From: Candidatus Vogelbacteria bacterium
GTDB taxonomy: Bacteria > Patescibacteriota > Minisyncoccia > Phycocordibacterales > JACOZG01
Assembly (NCBI GenBank): GCA_016181465.1
Contig: JACOZG010000003.1
Coordinates: forward strand, 1 to 38,827
Reading direction: 5' to 3'
DNA length: 38,827 bases
Positions within the stretch are counted from its first letter, which is position 1; every line of letters starts with the position of its first letter. Under the pieces are notes generated by a model, which saw only the letters and a list, made by a program, of their open reading frames with translations, did no database searches and was not told where the DNA came from. The translations under genes and the position numbers were made by a program. Below, one piece after another: positions 1,795-22,451 of this stretch.

Positions 1795-3528
1795 TCAGAG
1801 AGACATCCGCCAATCAACAATCCGCAAACGCAATTCAGACCGGTCTCGGAAATAGGATTTTTCCAAGTTGGCCAGAAGGTCAATCCGGTCGCCGCCGGCC
1901 GGCGGTGACCCAAGAGCGAAAAATTTGACGGCTTTGATTCCCGGCGCGAGATTCAATTCCAGATGGCTCGGACCGCGGCCGAATAAACGACTGCCTCGAA
2001 CGGCCAGATTTTTGAATAAAAATACCGGTTTATGATTCTCCACGCCGAACGGCGCCAAGCGCGCCAGCGAATCATAGGTCGCGGATGAAAATGATTCAAC
2101 CGACAGTTCGACATCAAAAAATAACTCGTCCCTCCTAACTAACGGTTCTTTAGCCACCGCGGCGTAAGCCGCCACGAGCGCCAGCGTCAAATCCGGGAGC
2201 CGCTTGGGCAGAAGCGAAAATCCGCCGGCCGCGGCATGACCGCCGTAATTTAAAAAAAGCTCGCCGCCGGCGGCATCACTGGCCGCCTTCATCAACTCAA
2301 CAATATTAACCGCGCCAGCGGACCGGCAAGAACCCCTAACCTCGCCGCGGCCGTTCTGCCCCCACAAGAATACCGGCCGGCGATGCTCCTCCGCCAGACG
2401 GCTAGCGGCCAAACCCAAAACGCCGAGAGGCCAATTCGGCTCGCCGGCGATGAGCACGGTCCGGCCGGCCGCGACGGCAGAATCGGAGCGAACAGCTGCC
2501 AAAATTACCGCCACTGAAGCGCGCCGCTCGTCATTCTTTTCTTCCAAATGCCGCGCCAGCCGGTCGGCTTCCCCTTCGTCGTCGGCGGTCAAGAGCGCGT
2601 AGGCCGCCTGGCCGTGCGACATTCGGCTGGCCGAGTTCAAACGCGGTCCGATCAAAAAGCTGATGTCGTCTTCGGTAAGAAATTCCGGCATCAGGTTGAG
2701 TCTAACGAATAACCGCTGCAAGCCAAGCCGCGGCGTCCGCCGCAAAACTTTAAGGCCAAAATAAACCAGAGCCCGATTCTCGCCGGTCAAAGGCACCAGA
2801 TCCGAGACCGTGGCAATGGCGACGAGATCCAAGAGCCATTTTTCCCAGCCAGGCTCTACTTGGTGGAAATCAGATATCCACGGCTCGTGGATATCTGATT
2901 TCCACCAAAATTGCACCAACCCCTGCGCCAACTTGAAAACCACCCCGGCGCCGCAGAGCATTTTATAAGGATACGGGTCAGCCGGCTGTTTCGGATTGAG
3001 AATGGCGTAAGCCGCTGGCAATACCTCGGGCACCAAATGATGATCCGTGATAATCACCGTCATCCCCAGACGCGCCGCTTCCGCCACCGCTGCCACATCA
3101 GTGATGCCGCAATCAACCGTGATCAGTAATTTGACGCCGGCCGCGGCGAGCGCGGCGAGCGCCTGATTATTCAAGCCGTAAGATTCCTCATGCCGATCAG
3201 GAATATAGACGGTAAAATTAGGAAAATTTATCTGACGAAAGAAAGCGGCGAGGATCGCCGCGCCCGGCACACCATCAGCATCATAATCGGCAAAAACGGC
3301 GATTTTTTCACCAGCCGTAATCGCGTGAAGAATCCGTTCGCAAGCCCGTTCCATACCCAGCAACAAAAAAGGGTCGTGGAGATCGCGCTCGTAATCCGGC
3401 GTGAGAAATCTCTCGGCCGCTGGCTGTTCCGTGATACCGCGGCCAACCAAGAGTTGACGCAATAAATCAGAATTAACCGGCAAATTATTTTCTGCCGAAA
3501 CAGACCGCGGCCGCCAGATCTTTGGCAT
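1795..3528 (-). CDS. recJ: Single-stranded-DNA-specific exonuclease RecJ
   Basis: DHH/DHHA1 motifs ([42 protein letters not shown]); 577 aa. Confidence 0.95.
2860..2908. repeat. 49-bp perfect palindromic element (23-bp arms, 3-nt spacer) in-frame inside recJ
   Basis: TTGGTGGAAATCAGATATCCACG-GCT-CGTGGATATCTGATTTCCACCAA. Confidence 0.95.
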
Positions 3529-12680: not shown

Positions 12681-13646
12681 TCAATTACACTTAAAGCAGG
12701 TGCGGACATTGTTGAGGTAATTACTATCGCCGGACGCGTATTCCGTAGTTTGTGTCCCCGTCGTCAACCAACCTGAAGGACAAGACGGCGGCGAGGTTGG
12801 GCTGGCGCTTTTTAGATACATAGTCTGGCAAATCGGTTTGATCGCCGGCGCGCTCTTAACGCAAGTGCGCACGTTGTGTTTGACGCTTACGGTAGCGCTA
12901 ACAAATTCCGCTGTCACCCCCAAATCAGTCCAGAGACCAGTGTCAAAGACCGTATCCGGACAAGCTGGCGGGTCTCCGGGAGATCGTGCCTTCAAGTACA
13001 TGACTGACTCTCCGGGCGGCCGGTTAACGAGCACCGGACCGCCACAAGACCAACCAGTTGTCGTATCGTATTTCCAGTAGACGTTGTTTCCGGTGCAGCC
13101 GGCAGAACTAAATTTCAAAAAATTGCCGGAAACGGTCAAGCCGAAGTCGGCGGCCGGCGGATTAATGACCAATTTGTTGCCGTTTATCGTCAGCCCGCTG
13201 CCGGCATTGACGCCGAGAGACACTGCGCCCTGACCGCCGCCGGTGAGACCGCCCGCGGCCGAGGCCGTGATACTGCTAACTAAAGCCAAACAACTGGTCG
13301 TCCCGGTGGTGCCAGAAATCGCCGTAATGGCGCTGTAATTGTTCCCGGTGCAGGTGCCGGTGATGCGCGCTTGGACACCTTGAAATGCTATTTGAGAAAT
13401 AGAACCTGACTGATTGATGATAACGGCAAAACCAGGCGAGAGGCCAGAAAGCGGCGGAGGCAAATCCGCCCAACCGGCCGTACCATTGGCGTCAGCCGTC
13501 AAAACCTTATTGGTGCAATCAACCCCGCTCGGCAAACAGCCCTTGCGGATTCTCATCGCGCCAGCCACATCCAGCGCAGCCGCGGGGTCAAGTTGCGTGA
13601 TGTCAAGACTATTGCCAAAACCAACGCCCAGTTGATTGAAAGCCAT
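12681..13646 (-). CDS. Secreted adhesin/tail-fibre-like protein, paralog 1 (main frame)
   Basis: MAFNQLGVGFGNSLDITQLDPAAALDVAGAMRI..., repeated C-terminal NNVRTC modules; paralog of 13821-14903. Confidence 0.6.
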   Translation of the reverse strand: MAFNQLGVGFGNSLDITQLDPAAALDVAGAMRIRKGCLPSGVDCTNKVLTADANGTAGWADLPPPLSGLSPGFAVIINQSGSISQIAFQGVQARITGTCTGNNYSAITAISGTTGTTSCLALVSSITASAAGGLTGGGQGAVSLGVNAGSGLTINGNKLVINPPAADFGLTVSGNFLKFSSAGCTGNNVYWKYDTTTGWSCGGPVLVNRPPGESVMYLKARSPGDPPACPDTVFDTGLWTDLGVTAEFVSATVSVKHNVRTCVKSAPAIKPICQTMYLKSASPTSPPSCPSGWLTTGTQTTEYASGDSNYLNNVRTCFKCN

Positions 13647-13647
13647 G
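13549..13647. repeat. 99-bp exact direct repeat, copy 1
   Basis: Identical to 14806-14904 by direct comparison. Confidence 0.95.
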
Positions 13648-13839: not shown

Positions 13840-14903
13840 GTCCTGACGTAGTTCGTGAAAGTGCCGCCAGGCGCATATTCATTAGAATTAGCCGCTTCGG
13901 TCCAAACACCAGTGCAAGACGGCGGCGGGCTATTCGTCGAGCGCAAGTAAATAACTTGGCAGGGGCGATCGGTGCGGTAGCAAATTCGAACATTATTCAA
14001 CGCACCGCCGCCGGCATTCTCACCACTTGTGGGGCCGCTGGTCCAGCCAGCGGCGGTCGGACAAGCTGGGGCTACGGTTGAACTCTTCGCCCGCAAATAC
14101 ATCACCGATTCCCCAGGCATGCCAGTGGAAGGAGAAGGGAAGGTAGCGCAGACCCATTTGTTGGGCACAACCGTGGTATCGTATTTCCAGGTCTCGCCGT
14201 TGTTGGCGCAGGGCTCAAACTGCACCCGACCGGTCGCGCTGATCGTCAAGCCGTCGCCAGCACTAGGACTCACGGCGGTATCCACATTTAGCGCCACCTG
14301 ATTGCTCGCGTTTATTCTCAAACCAGTATTATCACTCGGGACGCCGGTATAAATTTTCAAAGTTACCGGACCGGACACTGCCGCGGTCGTGGTCGCCAAC
14401 GGACTACCAGTTAACAAAGTCAAACCAGAACCGGTCGGGGCTTGAACAGTGGTGACAAAATTCTGACAGGTCACGCCGCCGGCAAGCGTCACTCCGGTCA
14501 TCGCGTTGATGCCGCTGTTGCACTGGCCAGAAATAAACTGCTGCACCGTGGCCGGCGCCACCTGACCGTCTGGAATCGTAGTGTGCGTCTGACCGGCCGC
14601 CGCCGCCACAATGCCCTCACCGCCGATAATTTCAGTCGCAGAATAATCCCAGCCGCCCTGGTCATTGGGTACCCCTAGATCAATTCCATACCCTTCAGTA
14701 ATTTTAGTCAGCCCGGCCACATTAGTCTGCCAGCTGGCTAGACCATAGCTGTTTGATGACTTCAACACCTTATCTTGACAACCGCCAGTGGTACAACCAG
14801 CTCTAATTCTCATCGCGCCAGCCACATCCAGCGCAGCCGCGGGGTCAAGTTGCGTGATGTCAAGACTATTGCCAAAACCAACGCCCAGTTGATTGAAAGC
14901 CAT
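13821..14903 (-). CDS. Secreted adhesin/tail-fibre-like protein, paralog 2 (main frame)
   Basis: Same first 33 residues as paralog 1; similar Cys-containing C-terminal repeats. Confidence 0.6.
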   Translation of the reverse strand: MAFNQLGVGFGNSLDITQLDPAAALDVAGAMRIRAGCTTGGCQDKVLKSSNSYGLASWQTNVAGLTKITEGYGIDLGVPNDQGGWDYSATEIIGGEGIVAAAAGQTHTTIPDGQVAPATVQQFISGQCNSGINAMTGVTLAGGVTCQNFVTTVQAPTGSGLTLLTGSPLATTTAAVSGPVTLKIYTGVPSDNTGLRINASNQVALNVDTAVSPSAGDGLTISATGRVQFEPCANNGETWKYDTTVVPNKWVCATFPSPSTGMPGESVMYLRAKSSTVAPACPTAAGWTSGPTSGENAGGGALNNVRICYRTDRPCQVIYLRSTNSPPPSCTGVWTEAANSNEYAPGGTFTNYVRTCFVCS

Positions 14904-14904
14904 G
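14806..14904. repeat. 99-bp exact direct repeat, copy 2
   Basis: Identical to 13549-13647 by direct comparison. Confidence 0.95.
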
Positions 14905-15347: not shown

Positions 15348-15372
15348 CTGTTAGACACTCGGTGTTTAACAG
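15348..15372. repeat. Family-2 palindrome upstream of the transposase
   Basis: CTGTTAGACAC-TCG-GTGTTTAACAG (one G:T wobble). Confidence 0.9.
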
Positions 15373-15414: not shown

Positions 15415-16077
15415 ATGCGCAATATCAATATCAGCCCCGGAGAACATTACCATATTTATAATCGCGGCAATGATAAGCAAAAGATTTTTCTTGACGAACG
15501 GGATTGGATCAGATTTCTTTTCTGCATTCTGCATTTTCAATCACCTCTAACTTTCACCAATCTCTCGCGCCCGGTAACCAATTTTGTTAAACACCGAGTG
15601 TTTAACATTGAGCCGAGAGTAGTCAAGGATATACAGCGACAAAGAATTGTCCGGCTTAATTGTTTCTGCTTAATGCCCAATCACTTTCATCTGTTGGTTT
15701 ACCAAAAAACAGAAGCCGGGATCGCTCAATATCTGCAACGGGTGTTAAACAGTTACACCAAATATTTCAACACCAAATATAAGAGGGATGGCCACCTATT
15801 CCAAGGTCCCTACCGGGCAGTACACATTAACGACAATGACCAACTTCTTTACACCTCGGCTTACATTCACAGAAATCCAAATGAACTTAAACCGTGGCGA
15901 GATCACGAAAACAATTATCCATGGTCAAGCTACCGAGATTACATTGGTACGAATCAATGGGGGATGTTACTCGATCAAAAAATCATTAAGGAACAATTTA
16001 CGGACGGCCAAGATTACGATCGCTGGGTCAAATCAAGCGGGGCCAAAGACCCCGAACACATTGATAGTTTAGTCTAA
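15415..16077 (+). mobile_element. IS200/RAYT-type Y1 (HUH) transposase
   Basis: HYHIYNRGNDKQKIF, MPNHFHLL (HUH), YLQRVLNSYTKYFNTKY, GHLFQGPYRAVHI, YIHRNP, YPWSSYRDY. Confidence 0.93.
15585..15607. repeat. Family-2 palindrome inside the transposase coding sequence (reverse orientation)
   Basis: TGTTAAACAC-CGA-GTGTTTAACA, perfect 10-bp arms; encodes VKHRVFN. Confidence 0.9.
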
Positions 16078-16086
16078 TTGTTAGAT

Positions 16087-16110
16087 TGTTAGACACTCGG
16101 TGTTTAACAG
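16087..16110. repeat. Family-2 palindrome 9 bp downstream of the transposase stop
   Basis: TGTTAGACACTCGGTGTTTAACAG. Confidence 0.9.
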
Positions 16111-16226: not shown

Positions 16227-16532
16227 CTAAGAACCGTAAAGTTCGTGATGGGTACCGATTGCGGCCAAGGTGATCAAATCTGCGGCTTCGTGAGTAAAGA
16301 TCACCACCAGATCGCCGCCGACACTAAAACTGCGGTAACCATCGTAGCGGCCGCGAAGCGGGTGGTTTTTTAACAACGGATGAAATGGGTTTCGGATGAA
16401 CAGATCGCGCCGTTCCCGGAATCGTCTGATTTCGGCCGGCGTCAGTTTCTCGTCAGTTTCTTTAATTGTCTCTGAAAATTCCGGTGGAGCCGAAAATGAA
16501 TCATAACTTAAGCCATTGGTCCATTTCTCCAC
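16227..16532 (-). CDS. RelE/YafQ-like toxin
   Basis: LTPAEIRRFRERRDLFIRNPFHPLLKNHPLRGRYDGYRSFSVGGDLVVIFTHEA; overlaps an antitoxin-like ORF. Confidence 0.7.
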   Translation of the reverse strand: MEKWTNGLSYDSFSAPPEFSETIKETDEKLTPAEIRRFRERRDLFIRNPFHPLLKNHPLRGRYDGYRSFSVGGDLVVIFTHEAADLITLAAIGTHHELYGS

Positions 16533-16828: not shown

Positions 16829-16871
16829 GCAACGCTTCTGGCTGTTAGACACTCGGTGTTTAACAGATTCA
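16829..16871. repeat. 43-bp repeat unit containing family-2 palindrome, copy 1
   Basis: gcaacgcttctggCTGTTAGACACTCGGTGTTTAACAGattca; exact copy at 16939-16981 (110-bp period). Confidence 0.9.
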
Positions 16872-16938: not shown

Positions 16939-16981
16939 GCAACGCTTCTGGCTGTTAGACACTCGGTGTTTAACAGATTCA
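16939..16981. repeat. 43-bp repeat unit containing family-2 palindrome, copy 2
   Basis: Exact copy of 16829-16871. Confidence 0.9.
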
Positions 16982-17019: not shown

Positions 17020-19587
17020 CTATTGGATTTTGCAACAGCGAGCGTAGACGGAACCTCTAACGATAGTCGCCCCACCGACGCCAGCAACTGCTGTCCAACC
17101 ATTACCGTCAGGATAATCAAATATAGTATTGGCCGTGGATAAGAAATTATCGTAATTGGTTATTTTCAAGCCACCACCAGTTACAGTATAACCAGAAGCG
17201 CAGACGGCGGTAGCAGATTTTTTCCCAGAACCAAGGTCTGGATTGATGTCAACAGAGGAATTCGTACAAGACAAGCCAAGTGATGGGAGACTTTTCCACT
17301 CCGCCTGCCCAGTAGAATCTTTAGCTGTTAAAACATAACCAGAAACAGGATTTGTATTTGTAAGGATTTTAAGCAAGTTAGAATTGATAGTTACCGGCGC
17401 GCCGGCGCCCTCGTTGCCGATAGTAATTATACTGTTCGAACCATCTGCTTGAGAGCCACTAATCTTAATTCCTCTACCTAATGTAGTATTAGAACCGTAA
17501 GAGAGCCAGTTACCATTTAAATTGATATTTTTCGTCGCTGTATGATCCCCCAGATTGTCGCCGCCGGTGGCCGAGCCGGTATCGTCATTGGCGCACATCC
17601 ATTGCGAGTTACCGGATTGCCCGCCAACATTTGCCATCCACTTAAGGACCTGCCCGAAGGCACAATTTCGTTTCAAACTAAGCGTGCCGCTGGTTGTGAT
17701 AGAACCTCCGCTCTCGCCGGGCATAACCGCCAAACCGCTACCGGCAGCAACCGAGGTAACAGTGCCGCCGGTTGTGCTGGTGTTAGCAATGTCATCGGCG
17801 CAATCCCAGATGCCGTTAGCGTTGAATTTGAGAATCTTGCCGGCCGCGCAATCAGTGCGAATGTGAATGCTACTATTTGAATCGTTAATAAGGTGGCCAC
17901 CCATGTTACTCTCTAAACCGTTTTCCACTCTAATCTGCGTAATCCCACCGCCCGTGGCCTCTGGCCAGTCGGTTCGGCAGTCAGTGCCGATGCACACCTG
18001 ACCGTCGCCGAGCACGCTGAAACGACTGATGCCTCGTGCCGGGCCGCTCGCGGCCTCAAAAATTTTCGTCTCCGCTGATCCGTTCTGCGTTTTGACCTTG
18101 AAACCAGAGCTCGGAGACGCAGAGGAACTCACGACTAGGGCCGCCGGCACCTGCACATTAGCCCGTCCGTCAACCACCAGCAATTTGCTGTCTGTGTTTG
18201 CAATAGTATCGTAGCCAATCCCCACATTGCCTGTCACCGCCGAGTACTGGTTGAGACCGTCCCTGGTTACGGTCCAAGACGAACCGTCGTTAGCGCTCGG
18301 CGTGGCCAAGATCACTTTGCCGGCAGAATTAGTGGTCAAGAATTCACCAGCGGCGGCGCGCAGACCGAGCAGTTTCAAAAAACCAGTGGGCGAGATACTA
18401 AGCGCTCTCACCCCAAATCCTCCGCCCTTGACTTGATCCGCATCGCTAATATTGACCGGCGGGTGGCAACCGGGGACGCTGGAATCAGTGCACTCTGTCG
18501 GCGCATTCGGCGGCTCTTTCCAACCAGGCACGACACCCGGCACAATATCATCGTCACCATCATCACCACCGCCGTCATCGCCGCCGGCATCGCAACCACT
18601 CGCGGCGCAAATCTCGAAGGTATTACTTTGGTCAGACACTGTGCCGGCCTGATTGCTCAAGGTATAATAATACGAGGTGTCGATAGTGAAATTAGGAGAA
18701 CCAACTGCAAGGATATAAACATCACCGAGGGTATTATCTACATCGGCCGAGGCAACTTGCTGATTGGTTGAGGCGTTGAAACGTCTGAGTTTCAAAGTAG
18801 GATCAGTCAGATTATCGGTCCAGCTTATTCTAATGGTCTCGCCGATGGCGTAGCTCGTTTTATTCGTGGCTAAGTCAGTGATGAAGGGAGTGGTCGGCGG
18901 CGGCGCGGAAGCAATAATACTAAAATTACCGCTATTGGCCGTATCACTGCCCCACACCAACTTATAATAATAAAGGGTTCCGACGACGAATGTGCCGTCG
19001 TTTCTCACCTCGTCGTCGTAACTGCCGATATTGGGAACGGGAACATTTTGAGATCCGACAGGGATACCGCCTGAATTATAACGAGTAAGATACATAATGG
19101 CGCCGACTGGAATATACGATGGCGCCCGCCAAGTGATATGAATGGTATCACCGATTCTAAATTGCGCGCCGTTAATCGGCGTGTCAATGATGAGTTCGGC
19201 GGTCTGCGCGGCGGCGGTGATTTGAAACGGATTACTGACACTGAAAACTGGTGTATTGTTGACGGACTCAATAAAACCCTGGAGTTTAATTCGGTAATTG
19301 CCGGGCGCTACTTCAGGTATGGTGACAATCTGAATTCCGTCGTTGCCGGGGTTGCTGCAATTAAGATTAAGATTGAGCATTCGATCCTCTTCATCCAAAA
19401 ATATACAAACAACGGTGCCGGAAATGCCGTCCGTGGACCAAGTCACGGTTTGGCTAGAACCTACGGGCCAGATTTCACCGCCAACTGGAGAGGTGAGACC
19501 GAAGGCGGCGGCGGGCCGGGCCGAGACCAAAAACAAAACAAACAAAACCGGGATGATAAAAAGAAGCGCCAGCAGATATTTTTTCAT
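17020..19587 (-). CDS. Large secreted protein with signal peptide, Ig-like (GGxxW-type) domains and adhesin-like C-terminal region
   Basis: MKKYLLALLFIIPVLFVLFLVSARPAAA signal; LTSPVGGEIWPVGSSQTVTWST and IDTPINGAQFRIGDTIHITW domains; PGCHPPVNISD shared with adhesin leader PPGCWLPLNVSD. Confidence 0.65.
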   Translation of the reverse strand: MKKYLLALLFIIPVLFVLFLVSARPAAAFGLTSPVGGEIWPVGSSQTVTWSTDGISGTVVCIFLDEEDRMLNLNLNCSNPGNDGIQIVTIPEVAPGNYRIKLQGFIESVNNTPVFSVSNPFQITAAAQTAELIIDTPINGAQFRIGDTIHITWRAPSYIPVGAIMYLTRYNSGGIPVGSQNVPVPNIGSYDDEVRNDGTFVVGTLYYYKLVWGSDTANSGNFSIIASAPPPTTPFITDLATNKTSYAIGETIRISWTDNLTDPTLKLRRFNASTNQQVASADVDNTLGDVYILAVGSPNFTIDTSYYYTLSNQAGTVSDQSNTFEICAASGCDAGGDDGGGDDGDDDIVPGVVPGWKEPPNAPTECTDSSVPGCHPPVNISDADQVKGGGFGVRALSISPTGFLKLLGLRAAAGEFLTTNSAGKVILATPSANDGSSWTVTRDGLNQYSAVTGNVGIGYDTIANTDSKLLVVDGRANVQVPAALVVSSSASPSSGFKVKTQNGSAETKIFEAASGPARGISRFSVLGDGQVCIGTDCRTDWPEATGGGITQIRVENGLESNMGGHLINDSNSSIHIRTDCAAGKILKFNANGIWDCADDIANTSTTGGTVTSVAAGSGLAVMPGESGGSITTSGTLSLKRNCAFGQVLKWMANVGGQSGNSQWMCANDDTGSATGGDNLGDHTATKNINLNGNWLSYGSNTTLGRGIKISGSQADGSNSIITIGNEGAGAPVTINSNLLKILTNTNPVSGYVLTAKDSTGQAEWKSLPSLGLSCTNSSVDINPDLGSGKKSATAVCASGYTVTGGGLKITNYDNFLSTANTIFDYPDGNGWTAVAGVGGATIVRGSVYARCCKIQ

Positions 19588-19976: not shown

Positions 19977-20321
19977 CTATTTCAACGACTTTAAAATTTC
20001 GGCTTTTTCGGCCTCGGTCAAGGGCGGGGTATTGGGCGGCAGTTGGAGCGATTTCAGAATCTCGTTCTTTTCGGCTTGAGTCAGCGGCTTAGCGCCGGGC
20101 GGAAGCGCGAGCGACTTCAGGATTTCGGCTTTTTCGGCCTCGGTCAAACCGCCAGCCGCCGGCGCCTCGGGCGCGGGCGGCGCGCCGTACTTCCGGCCGA
20201 GGTAAATCAGACCGGCGGCCAGCAAAATCAGCCCGATGACTAAAATTACGACCAGCGGATTTTTATGATTAACCTTAACCGGCGGCGGCTGATTCTGATT
20301 TTCTATAACCTCTGGCGGCAT
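19977..20321 (-). CDS. Single-TM protein with three tandem LTEAEKAEILKSL repeats
   Basis: TM NPLVVILVIGLILLAAGLIYLG; three ~20-aa repeats; start reassigned to 20321. Confidence 0.65.
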   Translation of the reverse strand: MPPEVIENQNQPPPVKVNHKNPLVVILVIGLILLAAGLIYLGRKYGAPPAPEAPAAGGLTEAEKAEILKSLALPPGAKPLTQAEKNEILKSLQLPPNTPPLTEAEKAEILKSLK

Positions 20322-21242: not shown

Positions 21243-22451
21243 ATGATGGACTTAAAGAATCTGCGCTCGGCCTTGGAACAATTGGAGGAGGAGCGCGGCA
21301 TCCCCCAAGATAAAATTCTCGGCGCCATCGAGGACGCTTTAGTCGCCGCCTACAAAAAGGATTACGGCAAAAAAACCCAGATCGTGCGGGCAAAATTTGA
21401 CCTGAACACCGGCAAAACTGATTTTTACCAGGTAAAAATCGCCGTGGATGATTCCATGCTGGCCGAGGAGGCAACTGGCATAACTGGCAAGGTTAAACCT
21501 TCCACGGAAGGTTTAACCTTGCCCTTGCCGGCTGAAGGCGAGGCCTTAAAATTGAAATTCAACGAGGATCAACATCTCTTGCTAGCTGACGCCCGCAAAA
21601 TCAAAAAAGATGTCCAGCCAGGCGAAGAACTCGTTTTCCCGCTGGAAACCAAAGATGATTACGGCCGGATCGCCGCCCAGACCGCCAAGCAAGTGATCAT
21701 CCAGCGCCTGCGAGAGGCGGAAAAACTCTCGGTGCTCGCCGAATACGCCGACAAGGTCGGCGCAATCTTAAACGGCAAGGTGCAAAAGATCGAGCGCGGC
21801 AATGTTTTCGTTGATCTCGGCCGGACCACCGGTCTTCTGCCTTACGAAGAACAAATCCCCGGCGAGCACTATCATCAGGGCGAACGGGTCCGGGCCTATC
21901 TCGCGGCGGTGGAAGAGACGCCGCGCGGCGTCAACCTGCGATTGTCGCGAGCCCATCCCAAGTTCATTGAGAAATTGTTTGAACTAGAGACGCCGGAAAT
22001 CGCCAACAAACTGGTGGAGATCAAGACCATCGCCCGTGAAGCCGGATCCCGAGCCAAAATCGCCGTCGCTTCGGCTCACCCGAACATTGATCCGGTCGGC
22101 GCCTGTGTCGGTCAGCGCGGCATCCGCGTCAACACGGTCATTAATGAACTGGGCGGAGAAAAAATTGACATCATCAAGTGGGCCGAGGATCCCAATGAAT
22201 TCATCATCAACGCTCTAGCGCCAGCCAAGATCAACCAGCTAATCTTAAACGAGGAAAACCGCGAAGCCGCGGCCCTAGTGGCGCCGGACCAATTTTCGCT
22301 GGCGGTCGGCAAAAAAGGCCAGAATGTGCGCTTGGCGGCTAAACTCACCGGCTGGCGAATTGACATTAAATCGCCGGAGGGGGAAACCACGGACGGAGCG
22401 GCAGAATTTAAGGTTGAACCTTCCACGGAAGGTTCAACCTTGATACAATAA
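21243..22451 (+). CDS. nusA: Transcription termination/antitermination factor NusA
   Basis: DYGRIAAQTAKQVIIQRLREAEK, S1 region GNVFVDLGRTTGLLPYEEQIPGE, KH region DPVGACVGQRGIRVNTVINELGGEKIDIIKW. Confidence 0.97.
   Translation: MMDLKNLRSALEQLEEERGIPQDKILGAIEDALVAAYKKDYGKKTQIVRAKFDLNTGKTDFYQVKIAVDDSMLAEEATGITGKVKPSTEGLTLPLPAEGEALKLKFNEDQHLLLADARKIKKDVQPGEELVFPLETKDDYGRIAAQTAKQVIIQRLREAEKLSVLAEYADKVGAILNGKVQKIERGNVFVDLGRTTGLLPYEEQIPGEHYHQGERVRAYLAAVEETPRGVNLRLSRAHPKFIEKLFELETPEIANKLVEIKTIAREAGSRAKIAVASAHPNIDPVGACVGQRGIRVNTVINELGGEKIDIIKWAEDPNEFIINALAPAKINQLILNEENREAAALVAPDQFSLAVGKKGQNVRLAAKLTGWRIDIKSPEGETTDGAAEFKVEPSTEGSTLIQ
21486..21523. repeat. 38-bp perfect palindrome (family 1) in-frame within nusA
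   Basis: GGCAAGGTTAAACCTTCC-AC-GGAAGGTTTAACCTTGCC; encodes KVKPSTEGLTL. Confidence 0.97.
22410..22441. repeat. 32-bp perfect palindrome (family 1) at the 3' end of nusA
   Basis: AAGGTTGAACCTTCC-AC-GGAAGGTTCAACCTT; encodes KVEPSTEGSTL. Confidence 0.97.

Follow-up and report, generated by a model that had tools for sequence, protein, structure and literature searches.

A perfect palindrome within recJ

The recJ gene of a Candidatus Vogelbacteria genome carries a long perfect palindrome within its reading frame, which raises the question of what this DNA is and how it came to be part of a conserved protein. The gene lies in a stretch of 38,827 nucleotides (the window), which is contig C11 of a 48-contig draft genome of 643,941 bp (G000). 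The features concerned are the following.

1795–3528, minus strand: recJ, host gene of the element; 577 residues; Pfam DHH (3e-24), DHHA1 (3e-12) and RecJ_OB (6e-17)
2860–2908, no strand assigned: G-type doublet, very probably a REPIN; palindrome of 49 bp, perfect, with 23-bp arms around GCT and a 45-bp core at 2862–2906; read in frame on the minus strand; copies elsewhere in the genome and in other genomes
2863–2881, plus strand: first G-type unit GTGGAAATCAGATATCCAC, itself a quasi-palindrome
2887–2905, minus strand: second G-type unit, inverted; the plus strand reads GTGGATATCTGATTTCCAC

The repeat search placed the arms at 2860–2882 and 2886–2908. They are 23 nt long, 100% complementary and three nucleotides (GCT) apart, exactly as in the preliminary description of this DNA, which had reported a 49-bp perfect palindrome in frame in recJ. 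The element is the longest perfect palindrome of both the window and the genome. We estimate the probability of such an inverted repeat, perfect over 23 bp, at about 4^-23 for a given centre, so that chance alone should yield none. Folded as RNA, the 91-nt region of recJ has −48.4 kcal/mol, compared to −24.4 ± 2.9 kcal/mol for shuffled sequences (z = −8.3).

The window protein is homologous to RecJ proteins of solved structure (8y30, 5f54, 2zxo and 1ir6). The in-frame peptide at the palindrome has 19 residues; it had been given with 18, one V before EPGWEK having been omitted. The block had also been thought to be inserted, which is supported by the comparison with 29 orthologs from the same order. 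In these, the FKLxQALL helix leads to GWEKWLLD through a usually shorter or unrelated linker, and the segment from GAG to LLD counts 42 residues in the window protein against most often 30 in the orthologs. No strong palindrome is present at this loop in any of the 29 genes, the best being a 9-bp arm in one ortholog, and the segment was not found conserved without its palindrome. The longer loops of genomes G002, G029 and G017 were searched for palindromes and contain none. The inserted appearance is also backed by the presence of identical DNA in an unrelated gene on contig C17, described below. The closest ortholog is 56% identical, and neither a strain-level empty site for recJ nor an excision or transposition event was seen.

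From the alignment to the solved structures, the insertion site would be a connector joining two helices. The net excess of the loop is about 12 residues (36 bp). As this is less than the 45–49 bp of the element, either the loop DNA was partly lost or the ancestral loop differed. Since the length of the loop is naturally variable among orthologs without palindromes, some of the 12-residue excess could be older than the element.

Copies and anatomy of the G-type family

The genome-wide search that had been proposed for the recJ palindrome returned further copies. By BLAST, 47 bp identical to the recJ element were found at C17:14409–14455, within a cobalamin adenosyltransferase gene (Cob_adeno_trans, E = 4.6e-47). 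Variants are present at C36:8256–8304, at C43:7707–7741 and on contigs C7 and C9; their locations include uvrB (on C7), a membrane-protein gene and intergenic DNA. There are about seven G-type loci in the genome, four of which are doublets, each with exactly complementary units.

The unit of the recJ element is GTGGAWATCNGATWTCCAC, a nearly palindromic sequence of 19 bp. The doublet consists of two inverted units, so that one long hairpin or two small ones are possible. The canonical G-type doublet measures 45 bp, that is 15 codons, and reads GGTGG..CCACC in G000 and TGTGG..CCACA in Taylorbacteria. The units start with GTGG, but this motif pairs with CCAC and is not an unpaired foot as in classic GTAG REPs. 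A CGTC end or tag, as in the Rickettsia palindromic elements (RPEs) of the RPE-4/RPE-6 type, was not seen on the units.

The element is read in different frames in recJ and in the adenosyltransferase gene, yielding different peptides. It is therefore the DNA that spread, and the idea of the peptide as the selected unit was rejected. Two paralogous membrane proteins, encoded at C43:7174–7878 and C9:6724–7023, differ at one and the same position, where the former has a G-type doublet and the latter only one unit; they represent the gain or loss of a unit within the genome.

Transposases adjoining their units

Four Y1 transposases (PF01797) of 220–234 residues are encoded in G000. All four match the NCBIfam model of REP-associated tyrosine transposases (RAYT; NF047646, REP_Tyr_transpos), but under its curated cut-off of 80 bits. 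These enzymes, one of which is encoded inside the window, were absent from the preliminary description. The transposase gene at C36:7540–8241 (PF01797, E = 2.6e-8) is preceded by a G-type doublet, 15 bp before the ATG, and followed by a degenerate unit, about 31 bp after the stop codon; two exact G-type units were seen within 300 bp of this gene, for 0.02 expected. Each of the four genes adjoins its own unit family: G-type on both sides on C36, B-type on C11 (the window), three A-type units on C44, and TGTTAGACATCWGATGTYTAACA on both sides on C45, where the unit sequences were taken straight from the flanking DNA. The C45 and C11 transposases are 57% identical and their units are alike. The window gene is not the match of the recJ family. 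It is accompanied by the following units.

15349–15371, plus strand: B-type unit TGTTAGACACTCGGTGTTTAACA, upstream of the RAYT-like gene
15415–16077, plus strand: RAYT-like Y1 transposase with its own B-type units; PF01797 E = 1e-8; NF047646 E = 6.5e-11, below the curated cut-off
15585–15607, plus strand: B-type unit within the coding sequence of the RAYT-like gene, in frame
16087–16109, plus strand: B-type unit immediately downstream of the RAYT-like gene; more copies at 16843–16865 and 16953–16975

The window gene combines an in-frame unit within its own coding sequence with flanking units on both sides. A type II toxin-antitoxin gene, coding for a YafQ-like toxin (PF15738, E = 6.9e-9), lies in the window at 16227–16532.

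The arrangement found on C36 recurs in genome G150, a member of the Taylorbacteria from another family, which contains 18 exact G-type units, or 26 if one mismatch is allowed. Its RAYT (C12:19412–20089) is 61% identical to that of C36 and is flanked by G-type units at 19360–19374 and 20174–20188, both within 90 bp. The proteins most closely related to the C36 transposase come from G150 (61%), G006 (59%) and G130 (48%), all three genomes having G-type units, as doublets in G130 and as one single exact unit in G006. G243 also encodes a relative (48%), yet has few G-type units.

This adjacency of unit and transposase, present in two genomes of different families, is the arrangement of REPtrons, in which REPINs or BIMEs are associated with a RAYT (TnpA-REP) (PMC3116915, PMC6006769, PMC8266576). 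Since units of the same family flank a RAYT on both sides in G000 and in G150, a REPIN, in which two REPs are paired in inverted order, is the best explanation of the palindrome. We hold with good confidence that the recJ element is such a REPIN, in frame, and that its RAYT is encoded by this genome. An inverted doublet of the 19-bp palindromic unit would have entered recJ in frame, having most likely been moved in the form of a single-stranded hairpin by the genome's own RAYT-type HUH transposase, encoded at C36:7540–8241 between units of this family. An insertion that preserves the frame and falls in a tolerant loop would survive, and the inserted DNA would be translated as an extra loop of about 12 residues net in a working RecJ. 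It is our inference that the element is moved by the RAYT, that ribosomes translate the insert instead of bypassing it, and that RecJ with the insert is still functional.

Other palindromes of the genome

Throughout G000, 32 doublets were found, comprising 27 of A-type (AAGG-N5-CCTT), 4 of G-type and 1 of B-type (AACACTCGGTGTT), together with 51 single units. The halves of nearly all doublets are exact reverse complements although the cores vary between copies. All families considered, 25 of the 32 doublets are inside ORFs, which departs from the extragenic location that is usual for REPINs but does not define them, intragenic REPs being documented elsewhere. The recJ element belongs to a set of presumably mobile hairpins that would have entered dozens of housekeeping genes of this Parcubacteria-group bacterium in frame. 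Two A-type doublets are present in the nusA gene of the window.

21486–21523, plus strand: A-type REPIN-like doublet in nusA, AAGGTTAAACCTT-ccacgg-AAGGTTTAACCTT, in frame as GKVKPSTEGLTLP; net gain of 9 residues compared to the ortholog of G001
22410–22441, plus strand: second A-type REPIN-like doublet in nusA, at the C-terminus directly before the stop codon

The nusA and recJ elements had rightly been assigned to separate families, as their units are AAGG-N5-CCTT and GTGG...CCAC, respectively. With such units, a common origin of the two elements through the TCCACGG motif that they share was rejected. It had been overlooked that both are of the same kind, namely REPIN-like inverted doublets of a palindromic unit.

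Other repeats were encountered. Imperfect palindromes of the form AAATCTAACCA..TCGTC/TTCCGA..TGGTTAGATTT, apparently of a separate kind, occur in the window at 704–753 and 1323–1370, and also at C19:8532, C2:21750 and C44:36860. Hairpins ACCCCGTTAGAAA..TTTCTAACGGGGT recur at C45:7973–8003, C48:5521–5550 and C39:2892–2922. A perfect direct repeat of 99 bp (13549–13647 and 14806–14904) lies at the starts of two neighbouring genes of the window without Pfam match.

Distribution across the order

G-type units were found in 13 of 397 genomes of the order. Exact G-type doublets are present in Taylorbacteria RIFCSPLOWO2_02_FULL_44_35, Parcubacteria Greene0416_79 and GWC2_48_17, whose families differ from that of the window genome. 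A search of the viral sequence collection returned no exact doublet. In the genus of G130, where an empty site was sought at the DNA level, no ortholog could be aligned across the element.

Doublets of the A-type (AAGG) are present in 84 of the 297 genomes examined for them in this order, a control pattern being near zero. A Y1 transposase is encoded in 81 of the 84 genomes with doublets and in 101 of the 213 without (Fisher P = 9e-18, for related genomes and with no correction for phylogeny); some of the Y1 genes counted are probably IS200 transposases rather than RAYTs. G001, from the same family as G000, has neither a Y1 gene nor doublets. In G242, a genome of 1.4 Mb from the same order, there are 163 AAGG-type doublets, many of which share a GGGGATTGATTCTT-like linker and have covarying cores.

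Protein insertions and turnover of the palindromes

G001, devoid of doublets and of Y1 transposases, was used as the empty comparator. Compared to their orthologs in G001, the proteins with coding doublets in G000 have on average 9.75 extra residues at the element (n = 16), versus 1.3 in control windows of the same proteins. The maximum of 10,000 control draws was 6.3 residues, and at least 4 extra residues were counted in 14 of the 16 cases. The replicate with G002 gave 8.9 extra residues (n = 17 doublets) for 2.0 in the control. In-frame insertion in unrelated conserved genes, as in RPEs, is found for the doublets of G000 and G002. Not all doublets are clean insertions, as those at C45:2448 and C12:5630 come with no net gain.

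Among the 20 coding doublets of G000 with an ortholog in G002, 12 are matched by a doublet at the corresponding site of the ortholog. At these shared sites, 26 of 55 core pairs are changed on both sides and still complementary, and 6 are broken. Peptide identity is 52% in the element versus 74% in the flanks. At the adenosyltransferase site, the doublet is even of another family, A-type in G002 and G-type in G000. From the changes on both sides of the cores and the lower peptide identity, it is the palindrome that persists, not the peptide. The AAGG-type doublets of G002 (L192–L229) and G000, for example at C45:2448 and C41:2623, have different, internally complementary cores, and the peptide is altered.

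The palindromes may persist because they are inserted anew, because the transposase converts them, through template-switch repair, or because the hairpin itself is under selection. It is conceivable, though we would rather bet against it, that RAYT-driven hairpin pairs are here mainly intragenic and homing-like at fixed sites in protein loops, an old REPIN being rewritten or giving way to a different variant, or even to a different family as at the adenosyltransferase site, with the palindrome kept and the peptide changing.

The covarying stems and poorly conserved peptides at the shared sites would also fit a hairpin kept for its function as a regulatory element in RNA or DNA or as an mRNA structure, rather than for its mobility, and some copies are indeed intergenic. 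Covariation is equally expected from the copying of single-stranded DNA hairpins, template-switch repair or re-insertion, and compensatory changes in REPINs were reported by Bertels and Rainey (PMC3116915). The sites have neither gene, protein loop nor frame in common, the presence of the elements tracks that of the transposase, and the U-tract of a terminator is absent at recJ. Selection for such a function is therefore an improbable origin of the recJ element.

Relation to known elements

Like REPtrons, the system described here has inverted doublets of short palindromic units that fold as a hairpin, several families per genome, one unit-flanked Y1 HUH transposase per unit family, and compensatory changes between the arms. 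It differs in that the recJ element is intragenic and presumably translated, that the GTGG end is paired instead of forming an unpaired GTAG foot, that the transposases fall below the cut-off of the curated RAYT model, and that the host belongs to the Patescibacteria. Classes without the GTAG or GT[AG]G consensus have been reported (PMC6006769).

The in-frame palindromic inserts in insertion-tolerant regions of unrelated conserved genes are also reminiscent of RPEs, the textbook case of this phenomenon. Intragenic RPEs overlap with CGTC-tagged REPs, and no transposase dedicated to them is known (PMC3733652, PMC10969869). The recJ element might accordingly be an RPE- or MITE-like mobile palindrome spread by some other enzyme, the proximity of RAYTs being incidental. 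This is quite unlikely, as all four RAYTs of G000 adjoin units and as, in two families, the RAYT cognate to the G-type has G-type units on either side. Moreover, there is no CGTC tag, and the element, with 45–49 bp and two frames in use, is far shorter than the approximately 150 bp stated for RPEs, which encode conserved peptides. PARCELs (PMC2996958) are likewise palindromic coding repeats that spread horizontally, but they form tandem amphipathic domains, largely in membrane or surface proteins, unlike the isolated loop inserts described here.

A very stable hairpin within a coding sequence could also be a byp-like insert that is skipped by the ribosome and left untranslated. The inserts keep the frame open, whereas bypass would tolerate stops and frameshifts, and no gene split by a palindrome was found among the doublets and single units tested outside ORFs, which makes bypass very improbable. 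That the element is an assembly artefact, to which palindromes in a 48-contig draft are prone, or a product of chance can be discarded with near certainty, given its occurrence at independent loci, the very similar doublets of public MAGs that were assembled independently, and a perfect 23-bp arm far beyond random expectation.

The basic kind of the recJ element, taken as an in-frame REPIN, is not new. Intragenic GTAG/CGTC REP dimers were found in frame, often in DNA repair genes (uvrA, uvrB, DNA ligase and recB), where they encode 20–30 residues, and different REPs occupy about the same site in recB of two Xanthomonas species (Di Nocera et al. 2013, PMC3733652). Most REPs in that study are intergenic, in contrast to the predominance of coding doublets in G000, and CGTC REPs, including those of Rickettsia, have no dedicated transposase, whereas a cognate RAYT is present here. 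Neither recJ nor candidate phyla are mentioned there, and no paper on RAYTs or REPINs in Patescibacteria was found among the open-access papers searched. What is new is the setting in Patescibacteria, the mostly coding location and the turnover of palindromes at fixed protein sites.

In-frame palindromic inserts in conserved proteins, such as the RPEs of Rickettsia, had no matching enzyme. With hairpins inside genes and, in the same small genome, a transposase between matching units, the question becomes directly testable. If the homing-like reading were true, these systems would be a transposase-driven source of turnover of protein loops in conserved genes. The findings extend RAYT/REPIN systems to the Patescibacteria and suggest that REPINs reshape there the loops of RecJ, UvrB, NusA and other conserved proteins.
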